This document shows, one piece after another, positions 35,716 to 41,642 of a stretch of DNA of 64,000 nucleotides; the stretch's first letter is position 1; every line of letters starts with the position of its first letter. The notes beneath the pieces were generated by a model that saw only the letters and a program-made list of their open reading frames with translations, ran no database searches and had not been told where the DNA came from. The translations under genes were made by a program, and so were the position numbers. This DNA comes from an uncultured Prochlorococcus sp. (GTDB taxonomy: Bacteria > Cyanobacteriota > Cyanobacteriia > PCC-6307 > Cyanobiaceae). The stretch spans positions 1-64,000 of the forward strand of contig CACGBT010000007.1 in NCBI GenBank assembly GCA_902571335.1, written 5' to 3'.

Positions 35716-36402
35716 TTAAGCAACCCTAAATTCCCGTTTCATATTCATTTCAGGCAGGTCATTCATTGAGTCTCTCCATTCCTGGGCCCACTCACTTTGA
35801 CTATGTTTATAAATTCTAATTAGTTCATCTACAGAGGAATCATGATAATCAACTCTCAGATCTAAAAGAGGAAAGCCTAGTTCTCCACTAACTTTTAGAG
35901 CGCTTGAGGTTGAATGGAGGCTACGTTTATCTCCACCTACACTTTCTCCTGCATTAAGAGCATCAAGTAGTCTTTTCCCTAATTTAATATTTGGATCACT
36001 TTGTTTGAAAACATCAGCCATCACCTCAAGAACTTCAATATTCTCTAGAAAATTGCCAGCTACAGAAAAGTTTTCTCCACTAATATGTCCGCTTGTCTGA
36101 AAACATTCTTGACCTGTCCAGCATGCGCTTCTCCCATACTTATCAATTAAGTGAACCTGTCTTTTTTCCCTGCCAAAATCTTCTTTAATTAAATCTTCCA
36201 AAACAATTTTTGAATCAGAGCAAGATTGGAGTGACTCAAGACTTCTTATTCCTAAATAAGGATTAGTTTGCCCTTGAGTTGCAACAGCACCAACCTGTGA
36301 TCTAACGAATGAAACTGTTGAGCCAACAGCTATATGGCAAGAAGAAACTGCAACACCAAATCTATTTTTTAAAGGATCAAAACCAATAATTGAAAATGTC
36401 AT
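35716..36402 (-). CDS. DUF1028 family protein
   Basis: 228 residues. MTFSIIGFDPLKNRFGVAVS, SCHIAVGSTVSFVRSQVGAV, ATQGQTNPYLGIRSLESL and GHISGENFSVAGNFLEN match DUF1028, an Ntn-hydrolase-like fold with no assigned reaction. It lies 20 bp after the M20 hydrolase and is the last gene of a four-gene operon. In this setting it may act on an amide or ureido bond (inference). No signal peptide. Confidence 0.88.
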   Translation of the reverse strand: MTFSIIGFDPLKNRFGVAVSSCHIAVGSTVSFVRSQVGAVATQGQTNPYLGIRSLESLQSCSDSKIVLEDLIKEDFGREKRQVHLIDKYGRSACWTGQECFQTSGHISGENFSVAGNFLENIEVLEVMADVFKQSDPNIKLGKRLLDALNAGESVGGDKRSLHSTSSALKVSGELGFPLLDLRVDYHDSSVDELIRIYKHSQSEWAQEWRDSMNDLPEMNMKREFRVA

Positions 36403-36422
36403 TTATATCATTAGAGGCTTGT

Positions 36423-37679
36423 CTAAAAATTCTTATCAATGGAAAATATTGTATTGAATAAAACCTCAATACCATTAGCACATTGATCAAGAGAAGTATA
36501 TTCCTTATAGGAATGACTCAGACCATTTCTGCTTGGAACAAAGATCATAACCATAGGACAGATCCTTCCTATTTCTTGTGAGTCATGACTTGCTTTGCTT
36601 GGTAAGATTCCAGTTTTAAATCCCAACTTTTCAGATTCATGAAATGAAGAGCTCACTAATTTAGGACATGACTTAGTGGGGATCACTTCAAATTGAGGTT
36701 CTATCTGTACTACGCATCCAGTACCTTCTTGAATTTCTGAGCATAGATTCTCAATTCTTAAGCTCATTTTCCCAATCACATCTTCATCCAAATCTCTCAT
36801 ATCTATTGTGAATACTGCCTCTCCTGGAATAACATTTGCCGCATTGGGATGTAATTTCAATTTACCAACAGTTGCGACTGCACTTTCAGAAGTAGTTTTA
36901 GCTATCTGTTCAATGCCAACAATAATTTTAGAGGCAGCCAAAAGTGCGTCATTTCTATTTGACATCGGCGTAGTTCCTGCATGATTTGCCTGCCCTTTAA
37001 CCCTAACGGTTATTCTTTTTTGACCTACTATTCCATTAACAATTCCGATATCCAAACCACCATCTTCAAGTACCTTTCCCTGTTCAACGTGTAATTCAAG
37101 AAAAGCAAATATATCTTTTTTACTTCTTGCCGCACTTTTAATCTCAAGCCAGTTTCCACCAATCCGAGAAAGATTATCAATTATTGAACAGGAATTACTG
37201 GTAACAAAATCTTCTTCGTTTACAGATAAATTACCAGTAAAGCCTTTACAACCAATCATTGTCGATTCTTCATCAGCAAAGACAATTATTTCAAATGGTC
37301 TATTTAATTTAATGTCATTTTCCTGAAGGAAAAAAGCAATTTCAATTCCTGCAATCACTCCTAAAGTTCCGTCATACTTACCTCCCTTTGGAACAGTGTC
37401 GAGATGAGATCCGGTAACAATGGGAGGTAGATTATTATCATGCCCATCTAATCTTGCAATAATATTTCCTGCAGTATCAATTCTTATTTTCAAACCTAAT
37501 TCCTTGAGGGTTTTCATAAAAAAATCTCTTGCATATATGTCTTCATCAGAAAAACCTCTTCTTGAAACAGAACCATTCTCAGAAGCTCCGATTGAAGAAA
37601 AAGAATTTATCAAGTCTTGGATTCTCTCCCTATTTATTACCTGTGGCTCTAGGATATTTAATCCCGCGCTATAACTCAT
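36423..37679 (-). CDS. M20-family amidohydrolase (N-carbamoyl-L-amino acid hydrolase / allantoate amidohydrolase type)
   Basis: 418 residues. Metal-site motifs SHLDTVPKGGKYDGTLGV (His92, Asp103), FADEESTMIGCKGFTG (Glu137/138), ELHVEQGKVLE (His197), the dimer-domain signature GQANHAGTTPMSNRNDAL, and the late His in LSHSYKEYTS are all present. Family members remove a carbamoyl group from an L-amino acid or hydrolyse allantoate or ureidoglycolate, releasing ammonia and CO2. The operon context favours a carbamoyl substrate. 93 bp after the asparagine synthetase-like gene. Confidence 0.9.
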   Translation of the reverse strand: MSYSAGLNILEPQVINRERIQDLINSFSSIGASENGSVSRRGFSDEDIYARDFFMKTLKELGLKIRIDTAGNIIARLDGHDNNLPPIVTGSHLDTVPKGGKYDGTLGVIAGIEIAFFLQENDIKLNRPFEIIVFADEESTMIGCKGFTGNLSVNEEDFVTSNSCSIIDNLSRIGGNWLEIKSAARSKKDIFAFLELHVEQGKVLEDGGLDIGIVNGIVGQKRITVRVKGQANHAGTTPMSNRNDALLAASKIIVGIEQIAKTTSESAVATVGKLKLHPNAANVIPGEAVFTIDMRDLDEDVIGKMSLRIENLCSEIQEGTGCVVQIEPQFEVIPTKSCPKLVSSSFHESEKLGFKTGILPSKASHDSQEIGRICPMVMIFVPSRNGLSHSYKEYTSLDQCANGIEVLFNTIFSIDKNF

Positions 37680-37772
37680 ACTTCAATTACTTAAACCTAC
37701 TTAAGGTCTCTTATTTTTTAAATAAAACCTGTATTGGTTTACACCTTTTCAGAAATTAATTTAAAAACGAAT

Positions 37773-39785
37773 TCAAACTTTCCAGCCCAAATTATCAGCC
37801 ATCTTTTGAGCCTTATCTGGGATATCCTCAATTATAAAAATCTTATATAAGATCTGAACGCTTAAAAGATGATTGATTATTGCATCCAGCTGTACTTTTT
37901 CTGAGGCATCAAGCTCTGAACTGAAAAATTTATTCAGCAAATTATTTACTTCTTTTTCATCCAAGATTCCAAATTCTCTAATCCTCTCAGGACTTAAGAA
38001 TTCATTAACTATTTCCTGCATAGAACTTAAATTATCTTTATCTGCATGGGAAGGTGGAGCCATGAAAGGAAATTTTTCACGTTTATATAATGATTCAGGC
38101 AGCAATCCTGACATGGCTTCTCTTAAAACATACTTCTCGACATTGTCTTTAATCCTTAATTCAGGGGGGACAGCAACGGCAGCTTCAGCTAGGTGATGAT
38201 CTAAAAATGCAGGTCTGGCTTCCATTGAATTTGACATATCCACTCTATCTCCACCCCATGTGAGAATTTGGCCCTCAAGCATAGTCTTCATCCAAACATA
38301 CTGAGCCTGATCAATTGCGTATCTATCTTCCAACTGTTTAATATCAAGTTCTCCAAAAATTGCCGCCCCGGGATCATAAGTTTCCGTTATCTCTTTATAT
38401 TTACTTGAGACTAGACTTTTTGCATAAGTTTCACATGCAAGCCAAGGTTGAAGGCAACTTGGCGTAAATCCTAAATATTCCTTGAAAGACTGATTACTAA
38501 TCTCTTCATTAGCCAGCATCGCGCCCTTGAAAATATCATTTGAATTTTCCAGATTTTCTTTGAGATTCTCAGATTCTGAATTAGAAATTCCCACCCCAAA
38601 GGTATACATATCTTTTCTAAAAGCGGGATAGCCACCAAACAATTCATCTGAACCCTCTCCTGTCATAACAACCTTATAATCGAGCTCATTCACTCTTTTA
38701 CTCATAAGGTATTTGGCAATTGCGAGGGTGTTATAAATAGATCTTTCAGTAAACCACAGAACCTTTTCAAAATTCCCATACAGATCATCTCCATTTATTT
38801 TTAAAATCTCATGATCTGCATTTGTGGCGACAGCCATCTCTTTTGCTATCGAAGTTTCATCATATCTTTCATCACTGAAACCAATCGTGAATGCCTTTAC
38901 TGATTTTTGACTTATGGCAGAAGCCAATCCCAAAATTGAGCAACTATCGATTCCTCCGGACAAATAACAGCCGACAGGAACATCAGCGACCATTCTTAGT
39001 TCAACTGCTCTCAATAATTCTTTTCTAATATTTTCAATAAAATATTTTTCACTTTTATCTCTTTCATAAGTGTTTTTCTTAGGGAAATTTATATCCCAGA
39101 ATTTTTCTTCTGTTATCTCAAATTTATTATTTACTCTTTTGACCTTGAGGATATATCCGGGCTTAACTTGTTTAACACCTGCGAATGCTGTAGAGCCAGG
39201 TACCATTACCTGCATCAGTTGATGAACCAGTCCTTCACCCGTAAATTTCCTTTCAACTGATGGATGGGCAAATAATACTTTTAATTCCGAGCCAAATATT
39301 ATGGAATCATCGGTCTCAATCCAGTATTGAGGTTTAATCCCAAAACGATCTCTTACAAGATAAAGACAATCCTGTTCTGCATCAAACAATGAAAAGGCGA
39401 ATTCTCCTCGCAGATAGGATAATGATTCATCAATGCCATATTTCTCATAAAGCCTAAGCAATATTTCCGAATCACTTTTTGAAGAAAAGCTTACGCCCTG
39501 GGCAACAAGATCAGCCCTGATTCTCTGAAAGTCATAGAATTCACCATTATGCGCCATCAGAATATGATTTTCGTTACCACCGACAAAAGGCTGTCTGGCT
39601 CGATTTTCATTTAAATCAATTATTGATAATCTCGCATGACAGAATCCTACAGAAGCATCATCTGATAATTTATATCCAAAACCATCAGGTCCACGATGAC
39701 TTTGAATAGCCGCCATATTTACAAGAATCTGAGGTTCAACAGATTTATCTTTTGATTTATTAAAAACCCCGCCTATTCCACACAT
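37773..39785 (-). CDS. Asparagine synthetase (glutamine-hydrolysing)-like protein
   Basis: 670 residues. N-terminal glutaminase with nucleophile Cys2 (MCGIGGVFN), the block SHRGPDGFGY at 29-38, and HNGEFYDF. The ATP-pyrophosphatase P-loop SGGIDS is at 276-281, with GEGSDELFGGYPAF further on. Domain order and length fit AsnB. It may make asparagine, or, given its neighbours, amidate a carbamoylated carboxylate as do AsnB relatives in secondary metabolism (inference). It begins 4 bp after the carbamoyltransferase stop. Confidence 0.92.
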   Translation of the reverse strand: MCGIGGVFNKSKDKSVEPQILVNMAAIQSHRGPDGFGYKLSDDASVGFCHARLSIIDLNENRARQPFVGGNENHILMAHNGEFYDFQRIRADLVAQGVSFSSKSDSEILLRLYEKYGIDESLSYLRGEFAFSLFDAEQDCLYLVRDRFGIKPQYWIETDDSIIFGSELKVLFAHPSVERKFTGEGLVHQLMQVMVPGSTAFAGVKQVKPGYILKVKRVNNKFEITEEKFWDINFPKKNTYERDKSEKYFIENIRKELLRAVELRMVADVPVGCYLSGGIDSCSILGLASAISQKSVKAFTIGFSDERYDETSIAKEMAVATNADHEILKINGDDLYGNFEKVLWFTERSIYNTLAIAKYLMSKRVNELDYKVVMTGEGSDELFGGYPAFRKDMYTFGVGISNSESENLKENLENSNDIFKGAMLANEEISNQSFKEYLGFTPSCLQPWLACETYAKSLVSSKYKEITETYDPGAAIFGELDIKQLEDRYAIDQAQYVWMKTMLEGQILTWGGDRVDMSNSMEARPAFLDHHLAEAAVAVPPELRIKDNVEKYVLREAMSGLLPESLYKREKFPFMAPPSHADKDNLSSMQEIVNEFLSPERIREFGILDEKEVNNLLNKFFSSELDASEKVQLDAIINHLLSVQILYKIFIIEDIPDKAQKMADNLGWKV

Positions 39786-39789
39786 CTAG

Positions 39790-40902
39790 TTAAACGACAT
39801 CCATCACTCTTGTTGTTCTATCCATCAGACAGGTAAGTAATGCCATTCTTACAAATACCGCTCCTCTTGACTGAGCAAAATACCAATTTTTTGAGGTCTG
39901 ATCCAGTGATGTTGACAATTCAGGTCCACGAGCAAGTGGATGCAATATTATGGAATCTTTTTTAAATGGCAACTCACTGTGCAATTTAAATGAACTTCCA
40001 TGAACCTCATAATTTTCTCCCACCCATGCAATTGCATTTATATATGTAACGTCCAGGGAAGGCAATACTTTTTGCATATCATTCTCCAGCTCAATCTTCA
40101 GATCAGATTCAATAAGTTGTTCCAGCTGGCCTTCATCAAATAGATCGTTCTGATCAATGGTTTTGTCATCGTAAATGACAATAATTTTTTTTATGAAATA
40201 TGGGAACTTGCAGAATAATTTCAGAAGAGATCTGACTGTTCTCATACGTGATGGAACTCCGATGATACCAATGGTTATTTTTTCACTATCATCAATTGAT
40301 TTGTTAACCAGATGCGGTCTCCATTTAAAAATCGTATAAAGATCAGCCATCGCCTGAGTGGGATGTTCATCTATTCCGTTACCGGCATTGATTATTGGAA
40401 TTCTCAATGATTTTGTCATTTCAAAGATCGCCTCATTGTCACTTTCTCTAAGGACAACGCAGTCACCGTAATTATTAAACATATGAGCAATATCCAGATG
40501 GGATTCTCCCTTGGCAATTCCAGTGGAACTTTTATCGGTGATATTTATTGAATCGCCCCCCAGCCTGTGCCATGCGCTGTCAAAGGATAACCTTGTTCTG
40601 GTGCTTGGTTCATAGAAGGCATTTATGAGGATCTTTCCCTTGAGGGGACTGTTATGGGAAATATATCTGTTTGGATTACTTTCAAATTTTGCCGCCAGCC
40701 TGAAAAGTTGTAGAAGACAATCTTTACTGAACGGGTCTATGGAAATTACATGCCTGTCCAATAACTCATATAGAAATTCCGCTCTTTCCTTTATTTCAGA
40801 TAATAAATTCTGAGGATGAGTGGAGCCGTAAATATCAGGTCCGATTCTTGAAAAAGAATATGATTTTTCCTTATGTAAGGTTTTTACTTTATATGGTCCC
40901 AA
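39790..40902 (-). CDS. Aspartate/ornithine carbamoyltransferase-family protein, unusual
   Basis: 370 residues from a TTG at 40902; an in-frame TAG lies just upstream. Carbamoyl-phosphate motifs are intact: PSTRTRLSFD (STRTR 100-104), GIAKGESHLDIA (Lys131), HPTQAMADLY (180-189) and HPLARGPELS (321-330). About 45 extra residues precede the usual start. The segment that in ATCase holds the aspartate-binding Arg/Gln (TRxQxER) reads YINAIAWVGEN, so the acceptor is probably not aspartate. First gene of the operon. Its DNA looks more GC-rich than the core genes. Confidence 0.85.
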   Translation of the reverse strand: MGPYKVKTLHKEKSYSFSRIGPDIYGSTHPQNLLSEIKERAEFLYELLDRHVISIDPFSKDCLLQLFRLAAKFESNPNRYISHNSPLKGKILINAFYEPSTRTRLSFDSAWHRLGGDSINITDKSSTGIAKGESHLDIAHMFNNYGDCVVLRESDNEAIFEMTKSLRIPIINAGNGIDEHPTQAMADLYTIFKWRPHLVNKSIDDSEKITIGIIGVPSRMRTVRSLLKLFCKFPYFIKKIIVIYDDKTIDQNDLFDEGQLEQLIESDLKIELENDMQKVLPSLDVTYINAIAWVGENYEVHGSSFKLHSELPFKKDSIILHPLARGPELSTSLDQTSKNWYFAQSRGAVFVRMALLTCLMDRTTRVMDVV

Positions 40903-41291: not shown

Positions 41292-41642
41292 ATGGGGAAA
41301 GAGGTTTCTAAACACCTTCTACTATGCGCAACTCCCACAAAAAAGAAATGCTTTAAAGGCAATGAAGGTCAAAAAACATGGGAATGTCTGAAAAAGACTT
41401 TAAAAAAATTTGAGAATGATCTCTGTGCAAAAAACGTTCATATATTAAGATCAAAAGCTGACTGTTTAAGGATATGTAAAAACGGCCCAATTCTTCTTGT
41501 TTGGCCTGATGGTATTTGGTACGAGAAAGTTTCTCCAGAAAAAATTTCAGAAATTTTTACCTCACATATTATTAACGGTAAGCCAATTGAAAAATGGATT
41601 TTTAAAAAAACCCCATTTTTAGATAGTCCTAGATACTTATAA
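41292..41642 (+). CDS. Thioredoxin-like [2Fe-2S] ferredoxin
   Basis: 116 residues. HLLLCATPTKKKCF (Cys12, Cys20) and SKADCLRICKNGPILLVWPD (Cys58, Cys62) give the four-cysteine pattern of thioredoxin-fold 2Fe-2S ferredoxins. An electron carrier with unknown partner. Convergent with the hydrolase at 41629; the two ends overlap by 14 bp. Confidence 0.87.
   Translation: MGKEVSKHLLLCATPTKKKCFKGNEGQKTWECLKKTLKKFENDLCAKNVHILRSKADCLRICKNGPILLVWPDGIWYEKVSPEKISEIFTSHIINGKPIEKWIFKKTPFLDSPRYL

Follow-up and report, generated by a model that had tools for sequence, protein, structure and literature searches.

The window, a 64,000-nucleotide stretch of DNA from an uncultured Prochlorococcus sp., contains a four-gene operon, with all four ORFs on the minus strand (35716-40902). 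In order, the genes encode a carbamoyltransferase-like protein (CTase; 39790..40902, 370 amino acids from a TTG start as called), an AsnB-like glutamine-dependent amidotransferase (37773..39785, 670 amino acids), an amidohydrolase of the M20 hydantoinase/carbamoylase family (36423..37679, 418 amino acids), and a DUF1028 protein (35716..36402, 228 amino acids). The intergenic gaps are 4, 93, and 20 bp. The initial annotation had described these four families, in one direction and with these gaps, and both ORF calling and strong family matches agree with it.

The linkage of the operon's genes is not due to chance. The CTase and AsnB-like genes are adjacent in 30/30 Cyanobiaceae-type loci among the matches listed (30 of 56, with the window's locus included). 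In 20 of 20 wider loci, all four families lie together within ~6 kb, and the CTase and AsnB-like genes are adjacent in every one. The same pair is adjacent in 36/36 gammaproteobacterial loci from a scan of named genomes (all 36 have an SSS symporter as well), in 18/18 loci with a strong CTase from a sample of the class, and in 19/20 loci from the family of one phototrophic gammaproteobacterium (G639, discussed below). The exception is L240, a solitary CTase: no AsnB lies closer to it than ~9 kb. Rather than lying apart, then, the genes usually co-occur, and CTase and AsnB form a conserved core that spans two phyla: it recurs in marine Synechococcus, in some Prochlorococcus, and in a set of Gammaproteobacteria, often with a DUR3/SSS-type symporter. 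The named gammaproteobacterial carriers belong to genera that we take to be marine or halophilic. Among the named strains with a locus are Prochlorococcus MIT 9314 (L072), Synechococcus RCC307 (L096), and Kangiella aquimarina (L099). Overall, the CTase is present in 55/300 Cyanobiaceae-type genomes and in 24/369 of the Gammaproteobacteria sampled. The initial annotation spoke of a streamlined phototroph, but the core, often with the symporter, is found in Gammaproteobacteria too and is thus no peculiarity of such an organism.

The symporter is linked to the core in marine Synechococcus and many Gammaproteobacteria; the Prochlorococcus loci have no symporter nearby. Its best solved match is DUR3, at only 105 bits; urea is a possible substrate. 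In phototrophic Gammaproteobacteria, the core has varying neighbours, including genes for M20, isochorismatase-fold, MscS, and MarR proteins, sucrose synthase, and fructokinase. Neighbours were counted with tblastn: across 38 gammaproteobacterial loci, sucrose synthase was found in 13, PfkB in 16, and MscS in 9. Since a single lineage supplies most of the cases with sucrose synthase, MscS, and fructokinase beside the core, these may reflect just one event. MarR-type regulators and a small upstream protein were sought instead by clustering the ORFs of 73 gammaproteobacterial loci. (Two loci, L102 and L122, were excluded for being too short or of cyanobacterial origin, and reverse-strand clusters of spurious ORFs in GC-rich loci were ignored.) MarR-type regulators were present in 41 of the 73 loci and lay at most 5 kb from the CTase in 32.

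The CTase has both Pfam domains of its family (PF02729 or OTCace_N, 140.2 bits; PF00185, 38.4 bits) and the STRTR and HPTQ motifs, and it is the third carbamoyltransferase of its genome. Exactly three CTases were found in 7/7 genomes with the core that were searched, and two in the single genome without it. In a phylogenetic tree, the core CTases form one clade (support 98/99) that excludes the PyrB and ArgF paralogues encoded alongside them. (The naming of paralogues as ATCase or OTCase is our own assignment from motifs and the tree.) This tree omits the distant CTase G564_2 and a 13-amino-acid fragment (G480) and includes a newly extracted Pseudoalteromonas sequence; N-termini were trimmed, as they were in the tree before it. 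In an earlier tree that included G564_2, with G480 and a 7-amino-acid Pseudoalteromonas row left out, grouping the core sequences needed two changes, because the long branch of G564_2 fell beside the cyanobacterial rows.

The active site suggests a different acceptor from that of aspartate carbamoyltransferase (PyrB). The core CTase shares PyrB's fold family and carbamoyl-phosphate site: STRTR, HPTQ, and the equivalents of R105, K84, and R167 are kept in all 13 core CTases that were inspected, out of 17 aligned. But at R229 and Q231, which we take to be the residues that hold the side chain of aspartate, these 13 proteins read N-[AS]-I-[AS]-W, while 8 PyrB rows read R-x-Q. Another core CTase (L056) reads NAIVP, again without the arginine or the glutamine. 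Since the other active-site residues are kept, the enzyme can probably still grip the alpha-carboxylate of an amino acid, but is poorly equipped for a second carboxylate in the side chain. This pattern agrees with an uncharged acceptor, for instance glutamine; on residues alone, asparagine, serine, citrulline, or other neutral amino acids would be allowed. (The predicted CTase structure was of low quality, with pLDDT of 62.9, and no result rests on it.)

The AsnB-like protein is the best match to Asn_synthase in its genome (288-289.8 bits; the next proteins score 36.2 and 19.9 bits), and it retains Cys2 and the PP-loop SGGIDS. However, it scores just 262.7 bits against the AsnB equivalog model PRK09431, whose cut-off is 499. 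In 12/12 core proteins, the TTIRAS stretch of true AsnB, presumably its aspartate site, is replaced by ER[TS]IYNT. The core proteins also form one clade (100/100), apart from a true AsnB and from amidotransferases of the N-acetylglutaminylglutamine amide (NAGGN) type. Because the six non-core rows in this tree have very long branches, the one conclusion we draw from it is that the core proteins group together. Four core proteins score 301-314 bits against the NAGGN model TIGR03104 (cut-off 570.1), while the NAGGN-type enzyme of another phototrophic gammaproteobacterium (G423) scores 964 bits.

We also considered that these might be ordinary paralogues of aspartate carbamoyltransferase and asparagine synthetase that are neighbours by accident. 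Automatic annotation would indeed call the second protein AsnB, as it scores 431.7 bits against the broad model TIGR01536 (cut-off 267.1). But the CTase is under the cut-off of the PyrB equivalog model TIGR00670 (186.7 versus 236.95 bits), lies outside PyrB in the tree, and lacks R229 and Q231, and the CTase-AsnB pairing spans two phyla. Such ordinary paralogues are extremely unlikely. We rejected an ordinary PyrB and an ordinary asparagine synthetase on scores, residues, and trees; in the trees, neither protein groups with the PyrB or AsnB sequences included.

A known compound carries both of the groups that these two enzymes would add. Carbamoylglutamine amide (CGA) was described from Ectothiorhodospira marismortui (= E. 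mobilis) by Galinski and Oren in 1991, as cited in PMC1224877 and PMC3857566. In the available parts of these sources, CGA is an uncommon salt protectant whose one reported producer to date is this halophilic purple bacterium. CGA is C6H12N4O3, with four nitrogens and a computed [M+H]+ of 189.098. The literature searched named no genes for CGA, the accessible portions of the CGA literature contain no report of it in cyanobacteria, and those of PMC5818414 and PMC9716671 have nothing on CGA. Searches for DUF1028, and for Prochlorococcus with both enzyme names, returned no papers; a search for marine Synechococcus, salinity, and both enzymes found no paper on the operon.

Two gammaproteobacterial genomes, G639 and G423, carry reaction-centre genes as well as the core. 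For both HiPIPs found in G639, the top match is 1hpi (95.5 and 100.1 bits), which we take to come from Ectothiorhodospira vacuolata; a search for the source organism of 1hpi returned nothing. A comparison of reaction-centre proteins with PDB entries left the genus of G639 undecided. From the HiPIP matches, we infer that G639 and G423 are Ectothiorhodospira and its kin. In the family of G639, presumably Ectothiorhodospiraceae, 41/47 genomes have the CTase. Given that only one producer has been reported, either CGA has been overlooked or the product differs.

Because CGA is a known compound, we selected glutamine as the acceptor. We propose that the CTase is an L-glutamine N-alpha-carbamoyltransferase and that the AsnB-like protein is an N-carbamoyl-glutamine 1-amidotransferase. 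The same chemistry and osmolyte role could apply to another neutral acceptor, so that the product is, for instance, an N-carbamoyl-asparagine, an N-carbamoyl-citrulline, or the amide of another carbamoyl amino acid. All that the CTase residues tell us is that the enzyme does not bind a side-chain carboxylate as ATCase does, and the gene (24/369 Gammaproteobacteria and 55/300 Cyanobiaceae-type genomes) is far commoner than the single reported producer of CGA. But of the compounds named in the available parts of the cited literature, only CGA bears exactly both modifications; the CTase is in most genomes of the family inferred for the producer's genus (the 41 of 47 above); and the second-best named model for the M20 protein is an N-carbamyl-L-glutamate hydrolase. 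We consider a different acceptor to be fairly unlikely.

That M20 protein matches Peptidase_M20 (75 bits) and is over the cut-offs of NF006771 and of the hydantase/carbamoylase model TIGR01879 (384.4 versus 204 bits). H92, D103, E138, H197, and H365, which we take to be metal ligands, are invariant across 12 aligned rows. Its best solved match is 3n5f (258.7 bits), from the family to which the L-carbamoylases and ErtE, the N-carbamyl-L-glutamate amidohydrolase, belong. ErtE was the second-best model for 5/5 M20 proteins tested (414 bits for the Synechococcus protein), although the window's protein is under the cut-off of the ErtE model NF058540 (386.6 versus 520 bits). We propose that M20 is an N-carbamoyl-L-glutamine (ureido) hydrolase for turnover. 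Its best family name, allantoate amidohydrolase, suggested purine or allantoin catabolism as the primary role. We rejected this because the core of the system is CTase and AsnB, and M20 shifts in place or strand or is not nearby: by tblastn, it was not near the core in 16/36 loci of the Kangiella/Idiomarina/Pseudoalteromonas type. Nor did tblastn find a gene for DUF1028 or an isochorismatase in any of these 36 loci. Not every carrier, then, would turn the product over in the way proposed.

The DUF1028 protein (PF06267, 199 bits versus a gathering score of 26.2) was found in none of 18 gammaproteobacterial genomes with the core, and was seen only in cyanobacterial loci. T2 is invariant in 14/14 aligned rows. 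A structure model (pLDDT 84.5) matches Ntn folds, with Z = 16.5 for taspase-1 and 11.5-12.5 for HslV and proteasome chains, and many of the alignments start with model residue 2 at proteasome residue 1. The model thus combines the sandwich fold of Ntn hydrolases with a candidate N-terminal threonine nucleophile, and the protein is probably an N-terminal-threonine hydrolase. It is similar to the DUF1028 protein SPO2555 (2imh; Z = 30.2, rmsd 3.1 over 211 residues), which was deposited as a hypothetical protein, whereas its relative in the window has a defined pathway context. We propose that it is an amidohydrolase that removes the 1-amide.

Could the operon serve nitrogen storage or scavenging instead, with the ureido-amide stored for its nitrogen or imported as a source of it? 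In picocyanobacteria, M20 and DUF1028 are inside the operon, most other carriers have a DUR3-like symporter linked to the core, and the product would hold four nitrogens. But pure scavenging needs neither CTase nor AsnB, the named carriers belong to marine or halophilic genera, MscS and sucrose genes adjoin the core in many Ectothiorhodospira-type loci, and a MarR gene is near the core, as in the NAGGN operon (PMC8070244). We judge this role to be unlikely. Alternatively, the CTase might phosphorolyse an imported ureido compound, the resulting carbamoyl phosphate serving to make ATP, while AsnB separately produces asparagine. Some CTases (those for oxamate and putrescine) do run in the catabolic direction, and a symporter and hydrolases are linked to the core. 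However, in all loci but one, the CTase's partner is the special AsnB-like clade without the aspartate-site stretch; M20 would squander the same substrate as ammonia; and the carriers include phototrophs, which have little need for fermentative ATP. A catabolic CTase is very unlikely.

Among the known systems closest to the proposed CGA pathway is the NAGGN operon of Pseudomonas aeruginosa (asnO-ngg-peptidase, PA3459-PA3461). According to the accessible part of PMC8070244, its plan is AsnO, an N-acyl transferase, a hydrolase, and MarR. Similarly, the CGA operon would combine an AsnB-family amidotransferase, an N-acyl transferase, a hydrolase, and a nearby MarR gene to produce an uncharged glutamine-based amide, and in the loci compared, it is a CTase gene that lies beside the AsnB-like gene. 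The proposed acylation differs in using a PyrB-fold carbamoyltransferase where NAGGN synthesis uses the GNAT Ngg; there would be no dipeptide step; and M20 takes the place of the aminopeptidase. By analogy, the plan matches that for NAGGN, with carbamoyl for acetyl.

We think it reasonably likely that the operon makes and recycles CGA as a compatible solute. The CTase would carbamoylate L-glutamine at its alpha-amino group, with carbamoyl phosphate as the donor. The AsnB-like protein would adenylate the free 1-carboxylate and amidate it with glutamine-derived ammonia, giving CGA; a described analogue is the reaction by which AsnO completes NAGGN. When osmolarity drops or the cell requires nitrogen, the 1-amide would be removed by the DUF1028 Ntn hydrolase (in Ectothiorhodospira-type Gammaproteobacteria, an isochorismatase-fold hydrolase may do so instead), and M20 would cleave the ureido group of N-carbamoyl-glutamine to give glutamine, CO2, and NH3. 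In marine Synechococcus and many Gammaproteobacteria, the linked DUR3/SSS symporter may take up CGA or a precursor. The earlier idea that the operon makes, amidates, and hydrolyses a carbamoylated compound holds up, with a candidate substrate and product; in place of a nitrogen store, signal, or small-molecule pathway, a compatible-solute pathway with CGA as the candidate product seems a better description. It would be surprising, though, for cells to make a solute so rich in nitrogen where ocean water has little of it.

More tentatively, and with less than even confidence, we suggest that the CTase is the founder of a new enzyme class and that CGA is a common but unnoticed nitrogen-rich marine osmolyte, taken up by carriers that have the linked symporter and recycled by M20 and an interchangeable amidase, either DUF1028 or the isochorismatase-fold type. 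If so, CGA would be a means of trading nitrogen and salt tolerance among Synechococcus, Prochlorococcus, and halophilic Gammaproteobacteria. Our proposal offers functions for one clade of carbamoyltransferases, one clade of AsnB-like proteins, and one DUF1028 protein. It also puts forward genes that may make a compatible solute which, since its description from a single halophile in 1991, has been an orphan, and it predicts that some of the ocean's most abundant phototrophs contain an osmolyte rich in nitrogen.

The operon in the window comprises four minus-strand genes, which encode a carbamoyltransferase-like protein (CTase; 39790-40902), an AsnB-like amidotransferase (37773-39785), an M20 protein of the hydantoinase/carbamoylase type (36423-37679), and a DUF1028 protein (35716-36402). 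Our ORF calls bore out the coordinates, strand, and gaps from the initial annotation (4, 93, and 20 bp, computed from the coordinates), and the family assignments from Pfam match those from NCBIfam. In the source genome (1.48 Mb, 87% complete, with the window on contig 7), we found three carbamoyltransferases including this CTase, one strong Asn_synthase match (289.8 bits) and two more at 36.2 and 19.9 bits, and no symporter match (searched without a positive control). Divergent from the operon, 41292-41642 (+) encodes a 116-amino-acid, cysteine-containing protein with no Pfam match; it resembles 2Fe-2S ferredoxin-like proteins.

We call the CTase and AsnB-like pair the core. In our tree, the core CTases form one clade (support 98/99) beside the PyrB and ArgF proteins of the same genomes. 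In aspartate carbamoyltransferase (ATCase), the alpha-carboxylate is held with the help of R167 and K84, and the side-chain carboxylate is held by R229 and Q231. (Of these roles, we confirmed the contact of R167 with a bisubstrate analogue and the turning of R229 into the active site.) The 13 core CTases printed in the alignment, of 17 rows, retain both the motifs for carbamoyl phosphate and residues equivalent to K84, R105, and R167 of ATCase; at the site where eight PyrB rows read R-x-Q, these 13 read N-[AS]-I-[AS]-W. (The core CTase of locus L056 has NAIVP at this position.) Since the alpha-carboxylate residues are kept and R-x-Q is lost, the sequence leads us to expect, as the acceptor, an alpha-amino acid whose side chain is neutral.

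The AsnB-like proteins also form a clade (support 100/100). In all 12 that we aligned, Cys2, SGGIDS, and GEGSDE are kept, and the TTIRAS stretch found in a true AsnB is missing. The four that we tested scored under the cut-off for the amidotransferase of N-acetylglutaminylglutamine amide (NAGGN) synthesis; the gammaproteobacterial genome G423, which has the core, separately encodes a clear NAGGN-type amidotransferase.

If the amino group of glutamine were carbamoylated and its carboxyl group amidated, the product would be exactly carbamoylglutamine amide (CGA). We infer, with somewhat better than even confidence, that this is the product of the operon; the substrate and a salt response are likewise predicted. 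The NAGGN operon has AsnO, the Ngg acyltransferase, an aminopeptidase, and a MarR repressor (PMC8070244), and the plan of our operon repeats this one. It would work like the known osmolyte operons, but with different chemistry.

All five M20 proteins that we tested, from both phyla, belong to one NCBIfam subfamily (NF006771), and the runner-up model for each was ErtE, N-carbamyl-L-glutamate amidohydrolase. The predicted structure of the DUF1028 protein is confident (pLDDT 84.5) and resembles 2imh (Z 30.2, rmsd 3.1, 211 aligned), taspase-1 (Z 16.5, rmsd 3.3, 194 aligned), and HslV and proteasome chains (Z 11.5–12.5). Many structure-alignment rows begin with residue 2 of the model at proteasome residue 1, and Thr2 is invariant in our DUF1028 alignment. 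As modelled, DUF1028 has the Ntn-hydrolase fold.

With the window's CTase as the query (E ≤ 1e-30), we found matches in 55 of 300 sampled genomes of its family, in 10 of 59 genera, with a lowest score of 458 bits. In the window's own genus, three sampled genomes had the CTase and at least 20 did not. All 17 genomes with the CTase in a phylum-wide sample of 386 belong to the window's family. AsnB adjoins the CTase in 30 of 30 loci examined, out of 56 same-family matches. In 20 wider same-family loci, all four operon families were always present, and an SSS (DUR3-like) symporter lay upstream in 18; the other two are from same-genus genomes.

We also scanned named genomes and analyzed the best 80 of 193 confirmed CTase relatives. 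Among these 80, 28 loci have CTases that are 95–98% identical to the window's. Most are named Prochlorococcus, three are "Synechococcaceae cyanobacterium," and one is a Trichodesmium MAG. These Prochlorococcus-type loci include M20 (24 loci) and DUF1028 (23 loci), with the contig ending first in the remainder. None of the 28 has the symporter, and 22 of them extend 3 kb or more beyond the CTase on its upstream side; all 16 Synechococcus-type loci among the best 80 have it. One Synechococcus-type genome (G181) carries the complete five-gene cluster twice (L042 and L043), at sites about 850 kb apart. In six loci (L047, L050-L052, L054, and L055), AsnB and M20 are separated by an inverted, divergent DUF1028 gene (39–41% identity). 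Picocyanobacterial clusters also appear in MAGs labeled "Trichodesmium" (L061, CTase 98% identical) and "Gammaproteobacteria" (L093, 66%, with a Synechococcus-like symporter); these contigs are probably mis-binned.

Within the same best 80 of 193, CTases of 57–62% identity occur in Kangiella, Aliikangiella, Pleionea, Idiomarina, Pseudidiomarina, Aliidiomarina, Pseudoalteromonas, and others. All 36 gammaproteobacterial loci have the order SSS-CTase-AsnB (a contig end cuts two), 20 have M20 within about 5 kb on either strand, and none has a DUF1028 or isochorismatase query match nearby. In a sample of 369 gammaproteobacterial genomes, 24 have a CTase at E ≤ 1e-70. We examined 18 loci with strong CTases and two with weak ones. 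M20, an isochorismatase-fold hydrolase, CTase, and AsnB occur together in all 18 strong loci, with SSS in 14. The weak CTases (L192:9236-10255 and L193:3866-4846, 34–39% identity) have no AsnB match nearby, one of them being on a 5-kb contig; they are possibly a further carbamoyltransferase subfamily.

Six of the 369 genomes have photosynthetic reaction-centre genes, and two of these, G423 and G639, have the core. Two of the four HiPIPs of G639 were searched, and both matched 1hpi best (95.5 and 100.1 bits, versus about 44 and 31 bits for 1pih/2hip). We take 1hpi to be from Ectothiorhodospira vacuolata and 1pih/2hip from Halorhodospira halophila; because 1hpi is the best match, G639 appears to be an Ectothiorhodospira. 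Ectothiorhodospira marismortui, which NCBI equates with E. mobilis, is the reported producer of CGA (cited in PMC1224877 and PMC3857566). Of 47 genomes in the family of G639, 41 encode the CTase, and 19 of 20 loci examined combine M20, isochorismatase, CTase, and AsnB (SSS in 8 of 20). The exception, L240, has a lone CTase. (This core-type CTase, at L240:9408-10493, lies apart from AsnB; from reading the sequence, we judged its neighbours to be lipid A acyltransferase-like and 2-oxoglutarate dehydrogenase-like.)

Across these 20 loci and the 18 strong ones, sucrose synthase (13/38), a PfkB kinase (16/38), or an MscS channel (9/38) is encoded nearby; these names, and isochorismatase, come from Pfam scans of example proteins and tblastn. 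A MarR-type regulator is encoded in 41 of 73 gammaproteobacterial loci (in 32 of them less than 5 kb from the CTase), and all four example regulators pass Pfam's MarR cut-off. Within 5 kb in 52 of the 73 loci is a small protein, two examples of which have no Pfam match. It lies just upstream of SSS or M20 (such as L099:7931-8467 or L176:5313-5759) and, by eye, has an apparent signal peptide and a C-terminal transmembrane stretch.

The isochorismatase-fold enzyme of the Ectothiorhodospira-type loci and the DUF1028 of picocyanobacteria seem to occupy a single slot, and the two did not turn up together. We found no isochorismatase match in the cyanobacterial loci, and whole-genome searches found no DUF1028 in 18 of 18 core-bearing gammaproteobacterial genomes (few, if any, of the isochorismatase type). 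This pattern suggests that the two enzymes are exchangeable amidases; loci with neither exist.

Searching open-licence papers by compound names and compatible-solute terms, we found no biosynthetic genes for CGA. A candidate CGA pathway in Prochlorococcus would be surprising to physiologists of halophiles or picocyanobacteria, and it makes the question of this orphan solute directly testable.
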